DNA of 64,000 nucleotides from Woeseiaceae bacterium (GTDB lineage: Bacteria > Pseudomonadota > Gammaproteobacteria > Steroidobacterales > Woeseiaceae). The stretch lies in assembly GCA_028227395.1 (NCBI GenBank), contig JAOIZZ010000004.1, forward strand, positions 1 to 64,000, read 5' to 3'. Under the pieces are notes generated by a model, which ran no database searches, was not told the origin of the DNA, and worked only from the letters and a program-made list of their open reading frames with translations. A program made the translations under genes and the position numbers. Shown one piece after another: positions 4,597 to 13,508 of this stretch. Each line of letters opens with the position of its first letter. Position 1 is the stretch's first letter.

Positions 4597-5301
4597 TTGG
4601 GAGAGAACATGCTAACTGTATTAATTACCGGTGCAAATCGAGGTATTGGCTTAGAGTTGGTCAAACACTACTTAGATCATGGTGATCGAGTAATAGGTAC
4701 TTATCGAGAAACAACAAGCTCTAAAGAATTAATCCAGATGAGCGAAAATCATAAAGATCTAAAAACACTTAGCTTAGATGTCAGTTCAGATGAGTCATTG
4801 AAAGATTTCCCAAATCAATTGAATGGTGCACCAATTGATATTTTTATCAATAATGCTGGAGTCTTTGGCCCACGTGATTCTTCATTTGGTAATGTCACTG
4901 AAGAAGGTTGGGTCGCGGCACTAAAAGTCAACGCCATCGCCCCTTTAATTTTGACACAATTAATTATTGAAAATTTAAGAAAAGGTTCAGTAAAAAAATT
5001 GATCTACATAACTTCAAAAATGGGTTCTATTGATGACAATAAAGGCGGTGGCTCTTATGTCTATAGAAGCTCAAAAACAGCATTAAATGCGGTAGTTAAG
5101 AGTATATCCGTTGATCTCACTAATGAAGGAATGCGTGTAGCTCTATTGCATCCCGGATGGGTTAGAACGGATATGGGTGGACCTAATGGACTGATTGATA
5201 CAAAGACGAGCGTTTCTGGGATGATTAAAGTGATTGATGGCTTAAAAGATTCAAATTCTGGCAGCTTTTTTAATTATGATGGCACAAATATTCCATGGTG
5301 A
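4597..5301 (+). CDS. Short-chain dehydrogenase/reductase
   Basis: 'ITGANRGIGLELV' Rossmann motif, NNAG, YRSSK active site. Confidence 0.88.
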   Translation: MGENMLTVLITGANRGIGLELVKHYLDHGDRVIGTYRETTSSKELIQMSENHKDLKTLSLDVSSDESLKDFPNQLNGAPIDIFINNAGVFGPRDSSFGNVTEEGWVAALKVNAIAPLILTQLIIENLRKGSVKKLIYITSKMGSIDDNKGGGSYVYRSSKTALNAVVKSISVDLTNEGMRVALLHPGWVRTDMGGPNGLIDTKTSVSGMIKVIDGLKDSNSGSFFNYDGTNIPW

Positions 5302-5396
5302 TCATCACAATAATAATTTTTAAATTCAATTCTTTCGGTACTTCAAATAGTCCTTAAGGTACGAATCGAAACAGCATGCATTTTTAGGCGACGGAA

Positions 5397-7010
5397 TTAA
5401 TTTTTTCTACCCGGTCCATAAATAATTTTCCCTGGTCTATTGCCATTATGCTTACCATTTTCAACAACGATAACCCCATTCACGATTACAAATTTCATGC
5501 CGACTGAATATTGATGAGGTTCTTCAAATGTAGCTTTATCAATTATTTCGTTAGAATTAAATATTGCAATATCTGCATAATATCCTTCTGCAATTAGACC
5601 CCTATCATGAATACCTAACCTTTTAGCACTCTGACTGCTCATCTTTCGAACCGCCTGCTCTAATTTTAGAATACCTCGCTCTCTTACGTAATACCCCAAT
5701 ACCCTCGCAAATGTACCGTATTGCCTTGGATGTGGAGTGCCCTCACCAAATATACCAACTGGACCATCAGAGCCGATGGCGGTTGCTGGATGTTGCATTA
5801 TCCTATCCACATCATCAGGGTTTATAGCGTGATAAACCGCTGTCACACTTCCTTTCTCAAGTATTGCAAAAATAGTTTCTACTGCATTTTCAGCAGATGG
5901 CTTCATTCCCATTTCAATAGTAATTTCTGCAAGATTTTTCCCTGCCATTGATGGGTCCCAAGAATTTCTGGAAATAAATATATTCTTTGGATTGCCGCCC
6001 CCTCTTCCGTATAAAATTTTCTTAATAACTTCATTCTTAATAATGCTTCTGGTTTCAAGACTTCTAATTCGCTGAAGCATTCTTTCGTCTCCACCCTCCT
6101 GTGCCCATTGAGGTATTAAAGCCTTTAAACCTGTTTGAGAAGCGGTGTATGGGTATTGATCAATCGTTACGTCAAGCCCTTCATTCCTGGCTATATCCAC
6201 CAATCGTAAGCTCTCGATAGAAAGTCCCCAATTCTCTACACCCATTACCTTGTGATGAGTAATTTGAACTGGAATATCACTTTCTCGACCAATCCGAATT
6301 GTTTCTTTAACAGATTGAATTAATTCGGATGTCTCTTCGCGTATATGTGATATATAAATACCATCATATTCAGCAACAACCTTTGATAATTCAATTACCT
6401 CTTCGGTAGAGGCATAACTACCTGGCACATAGAATAATCCAGTAGACATACCCAAGGCTCCATCTTCCATGGCTTCACGAATCAATACCTTCATTTGTGT
6501 CATTTCAGATCTTGTAGGTTCACGATCTTCCGCCCCCATAACCATTTGCCTGATTGTTCCATGACCAACAAATGTACTCCAATTTGGACTGATTTTTTTC
6601 TCAATGATTGCATCATAATGATGACCAATTGGAAAAGGGGAAGCACCGTCATTACCTTCAGTAAGTGTAGTAACTCCTTGAAGAAGAGCACTTTCTGCTC
6701 CAGGAACATCAAAAATACCACGAAGTGCATGCGTATGAGGATCGATAAAACCAGGTGTAACCACCAAACCATTAGCATCGATGATTCGTTCTGCATTTTC
6801 TTTTGAAAGATTTCCGATTTTAACTATCCGTTCATCTTTAACAGCAATATCAGCAAAAAACCATGGATTGCCTGTACCATCAACCACCCTTCCATTGGTT
6901 ATTAAGATGTCATAGAGCAATAAATCATTTGCAGAACTATATTTTGCAAATCCAATAAGTACAAATACTGTTGCTGTATAAAAAGAATTTTTAAAAATTC
7001 TATAACACAT
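5397..7010 (-). CDS. D-aminoacylase / N-acyl-D-amino-acid deacylase-like amidohydrolase
   Basis: 'TPGFIDPHTHALRG', 'YISHIREET', 'ITHHKVMG', C-terminal 'GLIAEGYYADIAIFN'. Confidence 0.85.
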   Translation of the reverse strand: MCYRIFKNSFYTATVFVLIGFAKYSSANDLLLYDILITNGRVVDGTGNPWFFADIAVKDERIVKIGNLSKENAERIIDANGLVVTPGFIDPHTHALRGIFDVPGAESALLQGVTTLTEGNDGASPFPIGHHYDAIIEKKISPNWSTFVGHGTIRQMVMGAEDREPTRSEMTQMKVLIREAMEDGALGMSTGLFYVPGSYASTEEVIELSKVVAEYDGIYISHIREETSELIQSVKETIRIGRESDIPVQITHHKVMGVENWGLSIESLRLVDIARNEGLDVTIDQYPYTASQTGLKALIPQWAQEGGDERMLQRIRSLETRSIIKNEVIKKILYGRGGGNPKNIFISRNSWDPSMAGKNLAEITIEMGMKPSAENAVETIFAILEKGSVTAVYHAINPDDVDRIMQHPATAIGSDGPVGIFGEGTPHPRQYGTFARVLGYYVRERGILKLEQAVRKMSSQSAKRLGIHDRGLIAEGYYADIAIFNSNEIIDKATFEEPHQYSVGMKFVIVNGVIVVENGKHNGNRPGKIIYGPGRKN

Positions 7011-7055: not shown

Positions 7056-9314
7056 CTATTCATCATTATAGCTTTTCATAATTTCTCTTGGCCAAGCCAT
7101 TGGGACTTGTTGCTGAGGATTAAATACTCTTTTGTAACCTTGAGATGGGTATGCTTTAGCCGCAGCTGCAATTTCTTTTTCACTTATGAATTCACTTGGA
7201 ATTAGCTTAAAGACATCCAAACCACGAATAATTTCTGTTGCATAAATATAACCTTCATAATAATAAACAGACCAGTATCCACCTGTTACCAATTGCTCTT
7301 CATCTATAGGCCCTCTATCAAAATAAGCAATTTCTTTAGGTTTTTCTGAATCAGTAAAATCTATTATTGAAATTCCACCTTGATACCAAGCTTGAACAAA
7401 TATATCTCTTCCAGGTATTGGGATAATTGACCCATTATGTGCAACACAGTTTTCGGTTTCTAATTGTGGTGCTGGCATTTTGTAATGACTCTTGTATTCG
7501 AGTTTTCCGTCAACGATGTCATAAATAGCATCGGCACCCCAAGTGAGAGGATCCCAAGCTCTGCATCGAGGTCTTCCACCACCACCCCACTCATCAGTGA
7601 ATACTACTTTGGTTCCGTCATTATTAAATGTTGCTGAATGCCAATAAGCGAAGCCCTCATCTGAAACTGCATCTAGCCTTATTGGCTCATAAGGGTCTGT
7701 TATATCAAATAATATTCCATTGCCTGAGCATGCCCCAGCTGCAAGATTAGCGGAAGGAAAAACTGTTATATCATGGCATTCCTCAGTTACTCCTGTTGTT
7801 TGGGTGTCATCTCCATGATCACCACCTCTCCATAACCCAGCTAAAGCACCTGTTTCGGGATCAGCAAATACTGTAGGGCTACTAACTATTTTTGATTTTG
7901 ATGGATCAGCAACTGGAATTTCAATTATGTCTATTCTAAATAAAGCAGTCCTGTTATCGCCTGCAATATCCCCTATACAAGAATCTAATTCGTCATTGTC
8001 CCTTACGCTTGAGGTACCGGAGTTATAAACTATAATCTTGCCATCATCACCCGGTCCAGAAACAACTGAATGAGTATGTGAGCCACGACATGTTTGAACA
8101 ATCCCAACTTGTTTTGGTCTTCTTAAGTCAGATATATCAAATATCCTGATTCCACGGAATCTTTCTGGAGTTGGTTCACTCCCTGCACCCTGAAGCCCAC
8201 AGTCCACTCGGCCTCTGGTTTCTTCAACTGACATAATTAATAAATTACCAACTACAGAGACATCACCTTGACCTCCAGGACAAATAATAGAAGAAACTAG
8301 TGACGGAACCCCACCTTCAAACATCCTATAAATATTGAATCCGTGATAGCTTCCAGCAATTAATATATCGTCTCTAAACGCGATATCTGTATTGGAAAAA
8401 CTCAACATGGGGCTTCTTTTGTCACTTGCAGTAGTTTCTATTGATTTTACTTTCTCTCCCTCATCGTCATCATCCTCGTCACTCTCTTTAGCTTCATAAC
8501 GCTCAGAGGGATTATTAGGATCAAAAAAACCTGCAGGTTTTGATAAAGATGAAATCAATTCCAAATTAAGTATTGCTTCTCCAGCATTATAAAGTCCGGG
8601 GCTTAAGCCCGCCCTTGGATCCTCCGACAAAGTCACCAGCAAATAATTCATTCTCTCTATCTCTACCGATTGATCGTTTACTACATCTGAGGCAAATTCA
8701 TTCAAAATCGGATCATATGCGGAGCCTCTCTGTTTTCTTAATTTATCAACCATTTTGATTGCACCATCATGATGATTAATCATTAGTTTAAGAAAAAGTC
8801 TGTCGAAATCAGTGCTATTGCTTCTTTCGAGTTCTTCTAACTCTTCAGCACTAGCCATACCTGCCATATCATCCATACCTGCCATATCATGATGTGCATG
8901 CATTTCATTATATTTTACTGGGTCTAGTGCGATTTCCCCACGATCTTGAAGCCAATTCTTCATAAAATCGACCTCATCTTCCTGAGTAACTAATATTTTT
9001 CCAGCTAAGTCTAAGACAGGGATAGAGTTAGTTCTATCTAGCGCCATATCAGACATAATCATGGCTTGGTGGTGATGTAAGATCATTCCCTGCATAAACT
9101 CAACATCGTCAGAGGTAAAGCTAGTGTCAGCGATTTCTGATGCTGTTGCTACATCTATATCCTTAGTTTCCTCACCTGGTGCTCCAGGTTGAACAATTGG
9201 AGGTGCTGTACTTTGATCTTCAGCAAAGATTGATGAAAAAATAAACAGTGAAATGACAAGGATAAGAGTTTTTTTTCTGATTAAAATAAAATTATTCATA
9301 TAAGTGTTTGCCAA
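7056..9314 (-). CDS. DUF305 domain (two His-rich helical segments) fused to LVIVD-repeat beta-propeller, exported
   Basis: 'MQGMILHHHQAMIMSDMAL' and 'LKLMINHHDGAIKMVDKL' (DUF305); downstream repeats 'DIAFRDDILIAGSYHGFNIYRM', 'GIRIFDISDLRRPKQVG', 'GISIIDFTDSEKPKEIAYFD' (LVIVD). Confidence 0.8.
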   Translation of the reverse strand: MANTYMNNFILIRKKTLILVISLFIFSSIFAEDQSTAPPIVQPGAPGEETKDIDVATASEIADTSFTSDDVEFMQGMILHHHQAMIMSDMALDRTNSIPVLDLAGKILVTQEDEVDFMKNWLQDRGEIALDPVKYNEMHAHHDMAGMDDMAGMASAEELEELERSNSTDFDRLFLKLMINHHDGAIKMVDKLRKQRGSAYDPILNEFASDVVNDQSVEIERMNYLLVTLSEDPRAGLSPGLYNAGEAILNLELISSLSKPAGFFDPNNPSERYEAKESDEDDDDEGEKVKSIETTASDKRSPMLSFSNTDIAFRDDILIAGSYHGFNIYRMFEGGVPSLVSSIICPGGQGDVSVVGNLLIMSVEETRGRVDCGLQGAGSEPTPERFRGIRIFDISDLRRPKQVGIVQTCRGSHTHSVVSGPGDDGKIIVYNSGTSSVRDNDELDSCIGDIAGDNRTALFRIDIIEIPVADPSKSKIVSSPTVFADPETGALAGLWRGGDHGDDTQTTGVTEECHDITVFPSANLAAGACSGNGILFDITDPYEPIRLDAVSDEGFAYWHSATFNNDGTKVVFTDEWGGGGRPRCRAWDPLTWGADAIYDIVDGKLEYKSHYKMPAPQLETENCVAHNGSIIPIPGRDIFVQAWYQGGISIIDFTDSEKPKEIAYFDRGPIDEEQLVTGGYWSVYYYEGYIYATEIIRGLDVFKLIPSEFISEKEIAAAAKAYPSQGYKRVFNPQQQVPMAWPREIMKSYNDE
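8855..8890 (-). repeat. Perfect 18-bp tandem duplication encoding MAGMDD/MAGM-type Met-rich linker
   Basis: ccatacctgccatatcat occurs twice in tandem (8855-8872, 8873-8890). Confidence 0.9.
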
Positions 9315-9510
9315 GGATTAGTATTTAGTTGTTCAATATATTGTGAATATAGTTCGTTTAGAACTTCATCTTTTTCCTACCCTACAGAACCTTGCACAAC
9401 TTGTGAAGTCTGGTAGTTAATTTTCAGAAAAAATCTAAATCTAATATTATTTTTATGAATAAAAATAATACTCATTGGAAATTGGCACTTCTGAGTAATA
9501 TCAGCACCAA

Positions 9511-9560
9511 GAATCGGTCACGTACTTTCGGACGATGAATTTTAAGTCTTTAGCTTTTAA
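9511..9560 (-). pseudogene. Decayed tRNA-Leu(UAA) remnant
   Basis: 9519-9554 'cacgtactttcggacgatgaattttaagtctttagc' matches the intact tRNA-Leu segment 'cacgtcctttcggacaacggattttaagtccgtagc' at 30/36 positions, same orientation; anticodon loop kept, acceptor and T stems lost. Confidence 0.75.
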
Positions 9561-9703
9561 TAATCAGTAACAATCATATTACTTATATTAATTTATCTAG
9601 GGGCTTATAGAGTATTTTGGTTATTATTGATTATTGACGAAATAAATTTGAAATTGAGAAAAATTAGTATAATTTTTGTAAAAATTTTAACTGCCTTATT
9701 TTT

Positions 9704-10936
9704 TTAAACCGTTGATCTCATTGATATTTTCTGAATTTTCTGATAAATAACATAAGCTGCAACAAGGCCAATCATGCTAAAGAAGGAAACTATTAGAAAC
9801 AGGTACTGATAACCAGAGGCACCCGGATAAGCATCTAAAATAATACCCCCTAAGGTTGGCATAAATATATCTGGCGTGTATGCTATTACTGAAATTATGC
9901 CTGTCGCAGTGCCTGTGAATGCTAGTGGTATACTACTTTGCTCCAAGAGAGAAAAATAAGTTCCCCTAAGGGCATAGACAGCAGCGGTAAGAATGGCAAC
10001 ATTGATTATTAAATATGGCAAGAGTGCGGAAGAACCAGGAATAAGAGAAAAGATCAAAAAACCTACAGTCATAACAATACAAAATCCTAATATAGCTTTG
10101 GCGGGGCCAATTTTATCAGCAAAAAAACCAGCTGCAATGGCAGCAAATGGCGTGACCCAGTATTTACCTGCTCCTATAGCGCCACCACCAACTTCACCCA
10201 ATTCATAAATTTCAGTCGCATAAGGGGTAAAAAAGATTGTTCCCCACATTGCAGTATTGGTTGCCATTATAATAAGTGCGATTAACCAAATGACGGGTAA
10301 CCTTAAAATATATATGATTTCATTGGTGGTCACTTTTGGCTGTTTTTTATTATTAGATATGTCATCACTCATAATTCGCCAGACCAAAAGCGCTAGCACT
10401 AAAATATAAAAAGATATCATTATGATAATTTCAGGGACAGCCCTATCATCACCTCTGCTGTATGCAAAAATCATTAACAAAATCGTTGTCGATATCACGT
10501 CGGAAATACTTCTGCCTCCTTCAAGTATCCCGTAGGTCTTTCCTTGATCCTCTTTACTGCCCCAACAGCGTGCTGCTTTGATCATGGCTGACCATAATAT
10601 GCCTGCGCTGGTTAGACCCCATATTGCGAATAATATTAGGCAGATTTCAAAAGAAGGTAAAGTCGAAAAAACAAAACCCGCTAGTGCGGTTATCACGAGG
10701 GCAATAGATATGAGTTTTCGTGGTGAAAATCGATCTGCTAACCATCCTCCAGGAAAATAAGCGATTAAAGACACAGCTCCGAAGGTGCTTAAAAGAATTC
10801 CCATTTGTGTTTTTGTAAATCCAAAGGCATTTTGCATGGGAATATAAAAAATATCTGAAAATAAAGGTAGCCAAAAAATAACGCTCCCAGACAGGCATAA
10901 TAAACCCATCGTTAGCCATTTTTCAGTAAACGTCAT
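9704..10936 (-). CDS. MFS transporter
   Basis: 12-TM-like hydrophobic protein; 'GGWLADRFSPRKL' MFS motif A. Confidence 0.85.
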   Translation of the reverse strand: MTFTEKWLTMGLLCLSGSVIFWLPLFSDIFYIPMQNAFGFTKTQMGILLSTFGAVSLIAYFPGGWLADRFSPRKLISIALVITALAGFVFSTLPSFEICLILFAIWGLTSAGILWSAMIKAARCWGSKEDQGKTYGILEGGRSISDVISTTILLMIFAYSRGDDRAVPEIIIMISFYILVLALLVWRIMSDDISNNKKQPKVTTNEIIYILRLPVIWLIALIIMATNTAMWGTIFFTPYATEIYELGEVGGGAIGAGKYWVTPFAAIAAGFFADKIGPAKAILGFCIVMTVGFLIFSLIPGSSALLPYLIINVAILTAAVYALRGTYFSLLEQSSIPLAFTGTATGIISVIAYTPDIFMPTLGGIILDAYPGASGYQYLFLIVSFFSMIGLVAAYVIYQKIQKISMRSTV

Positions 10937-11052
10937 TTACGCCCTATACTTGAAGTGATTTTTTAAGATATATCAAACCACCTTACACAACATTATAAAA
11001 TTTGTGAAGTTAGGCATTGATACAAAAAAAAACTAGAAAATGATCCAAAAAC

Positions 11053-11099
11053 AAAAAACCCCTTCCCTAATCTTCCGAAGAAAATCAACAAAGAGGTTT
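11053..11099 (-). terminator. Probable intrinsic terminator of the tRNA-Cys/tRNA-Leu unit
   Basis: On minus strand AAACCTCTT...AAGGGGTTT can pair (with a G-U), enclosing TTTTC-TTCG-GAAGA (UUCG tetraloop), followed by a T-run. Confidence 0.55.
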
Positions 11100-11125
11100 A
11101 ATTCAATATTATCAACTACTTATAA

Positions 11126-11212
11126 TGGTGCCCAGAGCCGGAATCGAACCGGCACGTCCTTTCGGACAACGGATTTTAAGTCCGTAGCGTCTACCAATTC
11201 CGCCACCCGGGC
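11126..11212 (-). tRNA. tRNA-Leu (anticodon UAA)
   Basis: GCCCGGGTGGCGGAATTGGTAGACGC...CTTAAAATCC...GGTTCGATTCCGGCTCTGGGCACCA with long variable arm; CCA encoded. Confidence 0.97.
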
Positions 11213-11227
11213 TAATAATCAGATAAT

Positions 11228-11301
11228 TGGAGGCTAGGGTCGGAATCGAACCGGCGTCCACGGTTTTGCAAACCGCTGCATAACCACTCTGCCACCTAGC
11301 C
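11228..11301 (-). tRNA. tRNA-Cys (anticodon GCA)
   Basis: GGCTAGGTGGCAGAGTGGTTATGCAGCGGTTTGCAAAACCG...GGTTCGATTCCGACCCTAGCCTCCA. Confidence 0.97.
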
Positions 11302-11459: not shown

Positions 11460-12716
11460 ATGAAAAATATACTCATTTTTTTCTTACTAGTTCTTTTTTT
11501 AATGCCACAAATAGTGGTGGCAGAATCATCTGGACTGTTCTCGAAAATCAAATTAAATGACCTTCTTGTATCTTCTGTTTATGGAAGTATGACTCCATAC
11601 ATATCAACCAGTGATTCAGGTATTACTACCATCAATTGGTTAGAGCCAAGTGATAGTGGTTACGCTATAAAATTTGCAAAATATAATAATACTTGGGATG
11701 AGCATAAAATTGTCGCACAGGGTAATAATTGGTTTATTAACTGGGCCGATTTCCCCTCTCTAATACACATGAATGATGATAATTACGCTGCCCATTGGCT
11801 TATTAAAAGTAGCTCAGATAGGTATGCTTATGATACGCAAGCCTCCATATCAAAAGACGGTGGAGACACTTGGTCCAAACCCATAATCGTCAATCAAGAT
11901 GGAACTCCCACTGAGCATGGCTTTGCAAGTTTATATAGAGATGGTGATAACTTAGGGCTTATATACTTAGATGGTAGAAAAATGATCAACGAAATGACTG
12001 CTGATCCTAATGATACTGGCATGACATTGAGAGCCACTTCCATAAATCTAGAAACAAATATTATCAGTGAACAACTTATTGACGGTCTCGTGTGTGAATG
12101 TTGCCAGACCAATATTGCAAAAAGCAGTCAAGGTCCAATAGGTATATATCGGAACCGAACTGAAGATGAGATAAGAGATATATATATCACCAAGAAAATC
12201 AATGGTAAGTGGATGCCTGGAAAGTTACTCCATAAGGATGATTGGAATATCTCAGGGTGCCCTGTAAATGGACCATCGATTCATGCTGATATTAACAATG
12301 TAACTGTGGGTTGGTTTACCGCTGCCAATGATAATCCTGTAATCAAGTTAACTAAATCATCAGACCATGGCAATACATTCTCAACACCATATGAAATCGG
12401 TCTTAATAGTGCCGTTGGGCATATCAATATCACGGTTGATAGAAATGATAATACCTGGATGATTTGGCATAAGAAAATTAGTAACGGAGCCGTGGCTTTG
12501 ATGTTGAGCATGCTGGAAGATAAAACAAATCAACTTTCAGAAATGATTATAGATGAGACTGGAAATATCCCTCGTTACAGTGTTCCTCAGATCACCAATC
12601 ATAATGATGAGATTATTATGGCTTGGACTATAAAGGTTAACAGTGAAACATCAGGTAGAGGACGAAATACCCAGACTTCCATAAAGTCAGCATCGTTTAA
12701 AATCAATCAATTTTAA
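11460..12716 (+). CDS. Secreted sialidase-like (BNR/Asp-box) beta-propeller protein
   Basis: Signal peptide; Asp boxes 'SKDGGDTWSKP' and 'SSDHGNTFSTP'; cysteine motifs CECCQT and GCPVNGP. Confidence 0.75.
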   Translation: MKNILIFFLLVLFLMPQIVVAESSGLFSKIKLNDLLVSSVYGSMTPYISTSDSGITTINWLEPSDSGYAIKFAKYNNTWDEHKIVAQGNNWFINWADFPSLIHMNDDNYAAHWLIKSSSDRYAYDTQASISKDGGDTWSKPIIVNQDGTPTEHGFASLYRDGDNLGLIYLDGRKMINEMTADPNDTGMTLRATSINLETNIISEQLIDGLVCECCQTNIAKSSQGPIGIYRNRTEDEIRDIYITKKINGKWMPGKLLHKDDWNISGCPVNGPSIHADINNVTVGWFTAANDNPVIKLTKSSDHGNTFSTPYEIGLNSAVGHINITVDRNDNTWMIWHKKISNGAVALMLSMLEDKTNQLSEMIIDETGNIPRYSVPQITNHNDEIIMAWTIKVNSETSGRGRNTQTSIKSASFKINQF

Positions 12717-12735
12717 TTGAATATCTAGTAGCTGA

Positions 12736-13098
12736 TTATTTGGTGTATTTTTCAGCGCCTAAAAAATGAATGGATACATAAGGCTCATCACCTACTACCC
12801 AGCTATCATGCGGCTCTTTTGATACATAAAAAATATCACCGGGGGTTAACATGGTGACCTTTCCACCGGGTGATGCAGCAGTGGCATTGCCACTTACGAC
12901 CAAACCTAGATGCTCAACATCACAATATTTTTTATTGATGAGTGCGCCAACATGAGTTGACCATTTCCAACCTGGTTCATAAGTGGCTCTTCCAATAACC
13001 ATATTATTTATTTTAACGGTTTCAAACATCCCTTTATCAAAATTTGCAATCTCATCTGGAGAGTCGAATCTCTTTATTATTACTGCTAAATCATTCAT
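12736..13098 (-). CDS. Small cupin-fold protein
   Basis: 'HLGLVVSGNATAASPGGKVTMLTPGDIFYVSKEPHDSWVVGDEPYVSIHF' double-stranded beta-helix pattern. Confidence 0.75.
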   Translation of the reverse strand: MNDLAVIIKRFDSPDEIANFDKGMFETVKINNMVIGRATYEPGWKWSTHVGALINKKYCDVEHLGLVVSGNATAASPGGKVTMLTPGDIFYVSKEPHDSWVVGDEPYVSIHFLGAEKYTK

Positions 13099-13186
13099 TG
13101 CCTGCCCTTTTATTTAAGGATTATTAATCCATAACTCAATACTTAATATAAATCTCCTCAGGCCTGCTATCAAATTTCTCTTTGTT

Positions 13187-13345
13187 TTATAGAGAATTTA
13201 CCGCGACTATTGGCGCCACGATAAAATAAAGCAAACTGCATACTGCTAAAATCGTAACATCTTCATCAGAATAATAACGGCACACTAAATAAGTCAGTAC
13301 GCTAAATCCAAGAATAGGTAAAACCAAGTCACTTATATTTTCCAT
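13187..13345 (-). CDS. Small (52 aa) predicted membrane protein, not in ORF track
   Basis: MENISDLVLPILGFSVLTYLVCRYYSDEDVTILAVCSLLYFIVAPIVAVNSL*; AGGGGG Shine-Dalgarno-like sequence upstream of ATG. Confidence 0.6.
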   Translation of the reverse strand: MENISDLVLPILGFSVLTYLVCRYYSDEDVTILAVCSLLYFIVAPIVAVNSL

Positions 13346-13432
13346 AATTAATACCCCCTTCTATTATTTATACATAATAATAAGGAGTTTGGAAAGTAAA
13401 CTCCGTGGAAGTACTTTAGGGTGAAAACAAAT

Positions 13433-13508
13433 TGGAGCGGGAAACGAGATTCGAACTCGCGACCTCAACCTTGGCAAGGTTGCGCTCTACCAGCTGAGCT
13501 ATTCCCGC
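13433..13508 (-). tRNA. tRNA-Gly (anticodon GCC)
   Basis: GCGGGAATAGCTCAGCTGGTAGAGCGCAACCTTGCCAAGGTTGAGGTCGCGAGTTCGAATCTCGTTTCCCGCTCCA. Confidence 0.97.

Follow-up and report, generated by a model that had tools for sequence, protein, structure and literature searches.

Phage attachment-site arms flank an MFS transporter gene at the tRNA-Leu(UAA) locus of a marine Woeseiaceae genome

An MFS transporter gene downstream of tRNA-Leu(UAA) lies between two remnants of a phage attachment site, and we consider it highly probable that the locus was shaped by site-specific integration at tRNA-Leu, either by a phage or by an element that used its attachment site. In the window (the whole stretch of 64,000 nucleotides analysed), the parts follow one another and are oriented as in an integrated element: first the tRNA 5' half with core and P' arm, then the MFS gene, then P arm and core, with attL at 11212-11053 and attR at 9678-9516. 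A first-pass annotation of the sequence had proposed an integrase-less, tRNA-bounded segment holding the MFS gene, and this proposal is supported by the presence of both phage attP arms beside the two tRNA pieces; its observation that one gene, MFS, lies between tRNA-Leu and the fragment was likewise borne out for large genes. The locus belongs with decayed prophage islands integrated at a tRNA gene, a kind that has already been described. The features of the locus are the following.

11126..11212, minus strand: intact tRNA-Leu(UAA) (ARAGORN; Rfam RF00005, 55.6 bits)
11126-11182, minus strand: attachment core regenerated at attL, tRNA-Leu bases 31-87 (limits from the copies in relatives and phages)
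11053..11122, minus strand: phage P' arm after the intact tRNA, terminator-like (match to the P' arm of phage L157)
9704..10936, minus strand: MFS transporter gene between attL and attR (Pfam MFS_1, E=4e-29)
9549..9678, minus strand: phage P arm of attR (match to the P arm of phage L157)
9516..9548, minus strand: decayed attachment core of attR, tRNA-Leu bases 31-62 (alignment, model from relatives, G003 copy)
7056..9314, minus strand: gene for a DUF305-domain protein beyond attR, in the variable tRNA-Leu locus (Pfam DUF305, E=1e-37)
5397..7010, minus strand: amidohydrolase (Amidohydro_3) gene, in the variable tRNA-Leu locus
5363..5401, minus strand: probable second decayed core at the amidohydrolase stop codon (model R1, E=0.13, weak alone)
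4597..5301, plus strand: short-chain dehydrogenase gene, probable conserved boundary of the variable segment (related gene at the far end of that segment in G003 and G005)

The genome assembly measures 1.62 Mb and is 85% complete; its close relatives in public databases are marine Woeseiaceae MAGs. Among the four tRNA genes of the window are tRNA-Leu(UAA) and tRNA-Cys (11228-11301), both on the minus strand. A BNR-like gene (11460-13508) sits beside tRNA-Cys and splits a Gly-Cys-Leu tRNA cluster. A second insertion at this place was ruled out, as other genera too have a related gene beside tRNA-Cys, and this equivalent position implies that the split is old.

When 9330-9703 was aligned locally with the intact tRNA-Leu gene, a single match emerged, pairing 9511-9554 with 11146-11188 in the same orientation at a score of 46, against a best score of 25 in 2000 dinucleotide-preserving shuffles and of about 22 at the next-best non-tRNA place in the window. 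The similarity noted earlier near 9519-9554, in the same orientation, is thus real and passed the shuffled-sequence control that the first-pass annotation had proposed. The fragment sits downstream of the intact gene, at a distance of 1.6 kb. ARAGORN called no tRNA there, and cmscan against Rfam, even with the threshold relaxed to E<=10, did not match it to a tRNA, so that the covariance-model scan for a pseudo-tRNA, also proposed earlier, recognised nothing as tRNA; a blank result is expected because the fragment is a 3' piece. A mir-286 match in the same scan was dismissed as chance. A sequence-only model built from the copies in relatives found the fragment at E=1e-6, ranking it second after the intact gene.

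The fragment starts at tRNA base 31, in the anticodon stem. In the nearest relative, G003 (FRAM18_bin273, 99% complete), the fragment behind the copy of the MFS gene reproduces tRNA bases 31 to 62 exactly and free of errors (GACTTAAAATCCGTTGTCCGAAAGGACGTGCC), with no clear tRNA homology ahead of base 31. Because the window fragment starts at base 31 like the copies in relatives, and because the G003 fragment is exact over bases 31-62, we interpret the former as an old attachment core and not as a decayed whole tRNA. The earlier term of a decayed tRNA copy is therefore better replaced by attR fragment, since the sequence begins at base 31 and a phage arm precedes it. The core in the window is cut off at base 62, with no native flank recognisable beyond this point, and its mutated and shortened state suggests that att function was lost. 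The second core, at 5363-5401, is probable in light of G007, which has a near-perfect core at the matching end of its amidohydrolase gene (L070:1560-1616).

A stretch of 39 bases of the core, searched for as an exact match in IMG/VR, yielded eight contigs that carry a P arm, the tRNA-Leu core (93-98% identical) and a P' arm in joined form; the full tRNA gene was absent from all eight. The P arm (AAGATACTCTATAAGCCCCTAGATAAGCTAATATAAGTAATATG...) is conserved ahead of the core (truncated in L151, where the contig ends), and the terminator-like P' arm (...TTAAACCTCTTTGTTGATTTTCTTTGGAAGATTAGGGAAGGGG...) follows the core and leads into a tyrosine integrase, which matches PF00589/phrog_1 on each contig. 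Other genes found among the eight contigs encode an exonuclease, Sak4, a primase-polymerase, a methyltransferase, a repressor-type regulator, a DNA ejection protein and a terminase small subunit. We read these contigs as uncultured marine temperate phages, for which the phage collection offers only distant relatives among its isolates. In phages L150 (6935-9453) and L154 (6691-9642), genes with FecR and CsgG domains (curli-type secretion) adjoin attP, an unusual phage cargo.

Both arms were recognised in the window with queries that lacked the tRNA core. Window positions 9553-9633 are 92.6% identical to the P arm of phage L157 (E=1e-29), and the alignment extends to 9678 with a score of 132 against a shuffle maximum of 34. 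On the other side, 11053-11122 is 91.4% identical to the L157 P' arm (E=1e-23), with alignment scores of 102-136 against a shuffle maximum of 43 (110 against 32 for one comparison); the outer arm-site repeats of the P' arm are present in relatives and lost in the window. When one phage attP was compared with the nine congeners, the window sites 11053-11188 and 9511-9633 were the top two matches of this genome. The weaker similarity that the first-pass annotation had seen on both sides of the fragment is not tRNA, as the DNA on the MFS side is the phage attachment-site arm. The flank similarity 'taataatcag' near 9560 and 11212 was likewise dropped as a sign of duplication, since the stretch belongs to the phage P arm.

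The MFS gene is the only gene between the arms; no integrase is present inside the segment, and all phage coding sequence has disappeared from this interval in the window. A phage-type integrase was absent from all nine congeners searched, and a Pfam search of G003 returned only two recombinases, both of XerC/XerD size. XerC/XerD was set aside as the responsible recombinase, as the phage integrase accounts for the arms. The genome of the window itself contains an open frame of 439 aa that includes a tyrosine-recombinase domain (G000:C47:19285-19749), which the phage integrase search did not match. The segment is neither an active prophage nor a complete island, and the absence of an integrase is expected for a remnant.

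A search of 60 related genomes revealed about 15 tRNA-Leu(UAA) fragments in sister genomes, mostly spanning bases 28-31 to 87 (CCA); those on the same contig as the intact gene had its orientation and often lay 0.6-4 kb apart. Partial copies of tRNA-Cys, -Gly or -Lys did not occur in the same loci (282 kb). The genes that follow the shared tRNA-Leu differ among sister genomes, and several are separated by extra cores. G003 matches the gene order of the window (MFS, DUF305, amidohydrolase side). G005 and G008 have an intact tRNA-Leu with P' arm, followed by other genes and several cores, one of which in each genome leads into a common flank with a MORN-repeat gene; this gene was probably the earlier neighbour on the downstream side. 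Repeats of the tRNA 3' end around variable genes, the trait of additive islands, are clear in G008, G005 and G007; in the window, one repeat is certain and a second is probable. The ends of two G007 contigs overlap by 55 nt, which suggests the order DUF305, core and P' arm, MFS; this order rests on a contig break and, if the join is real, would mean that units changed order.

In the comparison with relatives, which had been proposed as a further check, MFS does not lie downstream of the intact tRNA-Leu in G005, G008 or the 0.7 kb visible in G001. None of the relatives showed a clean empty site flanked by the same neighbours. In G001, tRNA-Leu is followed by 27 nt in common with P' and then by a TetR-type gene, and the contig ends 0.7 kb past the tRNA. 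In related genera, phage-like elements occupy the same tRNA, with the integrase directly behind it and a core of bases 31 to 87 located 8-10 kb away. A direct trace of a decayed phage is seen in G008, where the phage FecR-type gene has a truncated homologue next to a P arm (L066:490-969). Two sister genomes have a 3' fragment resembling tRNA-Leu immediately behind a tRNA-Met gene, on its downstream side (L067:3851-3911 and L075:11162-11201), perhaps marking a secondary integration site.

Based on these comparisons, we propose that a temperate phage or element, with an attP composed of the P arm, tRNA-Leu(UAA) bases 31-87 and the P' arm, recombined with the host tRNA-Leu gene. The tRNA would have been rebuilt with a new terminator-like downstream arm at attL, and the displaced tRNA 3' fragment would have been left behind the P arm at attR. 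All DNA between attL and attR would have come in together with the element or arrived afterwards. The phage genes and the integrase would have been lost, leaving MFS alone. Because the att sites have decayed, the segment is probably fixed at the locus. In the reading that we favour, MFS is a piece of prophage cargo that outlasted the deletion of everything else: a whole prophage would once have been present, with MFS beside its P arm, a slot that holds FecR/CsgG-type or other accessory genes in the related phages. We infer this cargo status, because the phage coding sequence is gone and because scans of IMG/VR, which detect close relatives only, found neither MFS nor the adjacent DUF305 gene.

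The relatives of MFS and its upstream region add to the picture. Relatives 85-87% identical occur in L142, L143 and L144 (Kordiimonadaceae/Emcibacteraceae MAGs, Alphaproteobacteria) and at another locus of G008 (L068), each next to a PhyH-type dioxygenase gene; neither the P nor the P' arm was found at these loci. The relatives in Alphaproteobacterial MAGs and at the different locus in G008 suggest that the gene moves between lineages, and it was likely transferred between classes, unless some contigs are misbinned. By visual inspection, TTCACAA...GTTGTGTA(A/G)GGT-like sequences precede both MFS (10980-11008) and DUF305 (9385-9410), are clearer in G003 (L074), and possibly represent a shared regulatory site; for the MFS motif, the window holds no second match within 3 mismatches.

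The first-pass annotation had also considered a tandem duplication of tRNA-Leu and its downstream DNA with subsequent decay of one copy. The same orientation and the distance of 1.6 kb would fit such an event, but the copy begins at base 31, as in relatives and phages, it is preceded by a phage arm instead of tRNA bases 1-30 or the upstream flank, and MFS is not duplicated beside it; we reject this explanation as very improbable. Two other accounts concern only how MFS arrived, and our estimates for them do not compete with that for integration. MFS may have entered an already decayed prophage by ordinary recombination, in which case the att scars would be real and unrelated to its arrival. 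Relatives of the gene at loci where the arms were not found are consistent with this route; we nevertheless consider it unlikely, since the MFS stop codon is no more than 25 bp away from the aligned P arm, and MFS sits where the phages keep their own accessory genes.

The other account holds that MFS is a small non-autonomous cassette, a 1.6 kb unit composed of core and P', gene, and P and core, which a phage integrase would have moved in trans in a manner resembling an integron cassette or a cis-mobilizable element. In its favour, G008 (cores about 0.6-1 kb apart), G005 and G007 contain segments of one or a few genes between cores that are integrase-free inside, the nine congeners lack a phage integrase, and the overlap in G007 sets core and P' directly before MFS, behind DUF305 and not behind the intact tRNA. 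Many of the stacked cores, however, lack one or both arms, the FecR-type remnant of G008 fits prophage decay, the G007 join falls at a contig break and no circular form was seen; we consider this account unlikely. It is also unlikely that the stacks of marine Woeseiaceae in general are integrase-less, att-bounded cassettes at tRNA-Leu(UAA), moved singly in trans by the integrase of an uncultured temperate phage; if true, they would be a phage-run counterpart of the integron.

Decay of an integrated prophage, the reading that we prefer, places the segment among known systems. Like Islander tDNA islands and tRNA prophages, it has an intact tRNA at one end, a displaced 3' fragment in the same orientation at the other and a core that starts at the anticodon stem/loop; unlike them, it is integrase-less, spans 1.6 kb only and has a decayed core, and the Islander filter, which needs an integrase gene, would miss it (PMC4383910). 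Grounded (cryptic) prophages similarly have defective att sites, lost phage genes and retained foreign metabolic genes (PMC6379469), whereas the window retains of the phage the att arms alone. Streamlined plankton, for example 'Ca. Methylopumilus', has additive flexible genomic islands, there with 20-bp tRNA-Lys repeats (PMC10872708); recurrent tRNA 3'-end repeats mark the island in both cases, but in the present locus a defined phage attP is connected with the repeats through the arms, and the target is tRNA-Leu(UAA). The ssrA islands of Dehalococcoides, which show tandem direct repeats, and cis-mobilizable elements are also units stacked on one RNA-gene target, some without integration genes (PMC3146451); Dehalococcoides has serine-recombinase modules, in contrast to the phage tyrosine integrase here. 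Tycheposons, as far as they are described in PMC10872708, carry tRNA-bounded cargo in streamlined marine bacteria and have tyrosine recombinases; the window segment has no such gene, and its arms are phage arms.

Starting from a similarity over 36 bases, the analysis has mapped a phage scar, of a type that island finders requiring an integrase would overlook. Matching of attP to tRNA genes is established host evidence and supports broad taxonomic assignment (PMC3861242); we consider the phage-host link firmer here than such a match alone, because the arms are found in host and phage alike. The interest of the locus lies in this link and in the integrase-less stacks. Streamlined marine Woeseiaceae are linked to a group of uncultured temperate phages that has no close relatives in the phage records searched, and the locus offers a test case for whether integrase-less tRNA-repeat islands in marine plankton originate by successive prophage decay or from cassettes moved in trans.
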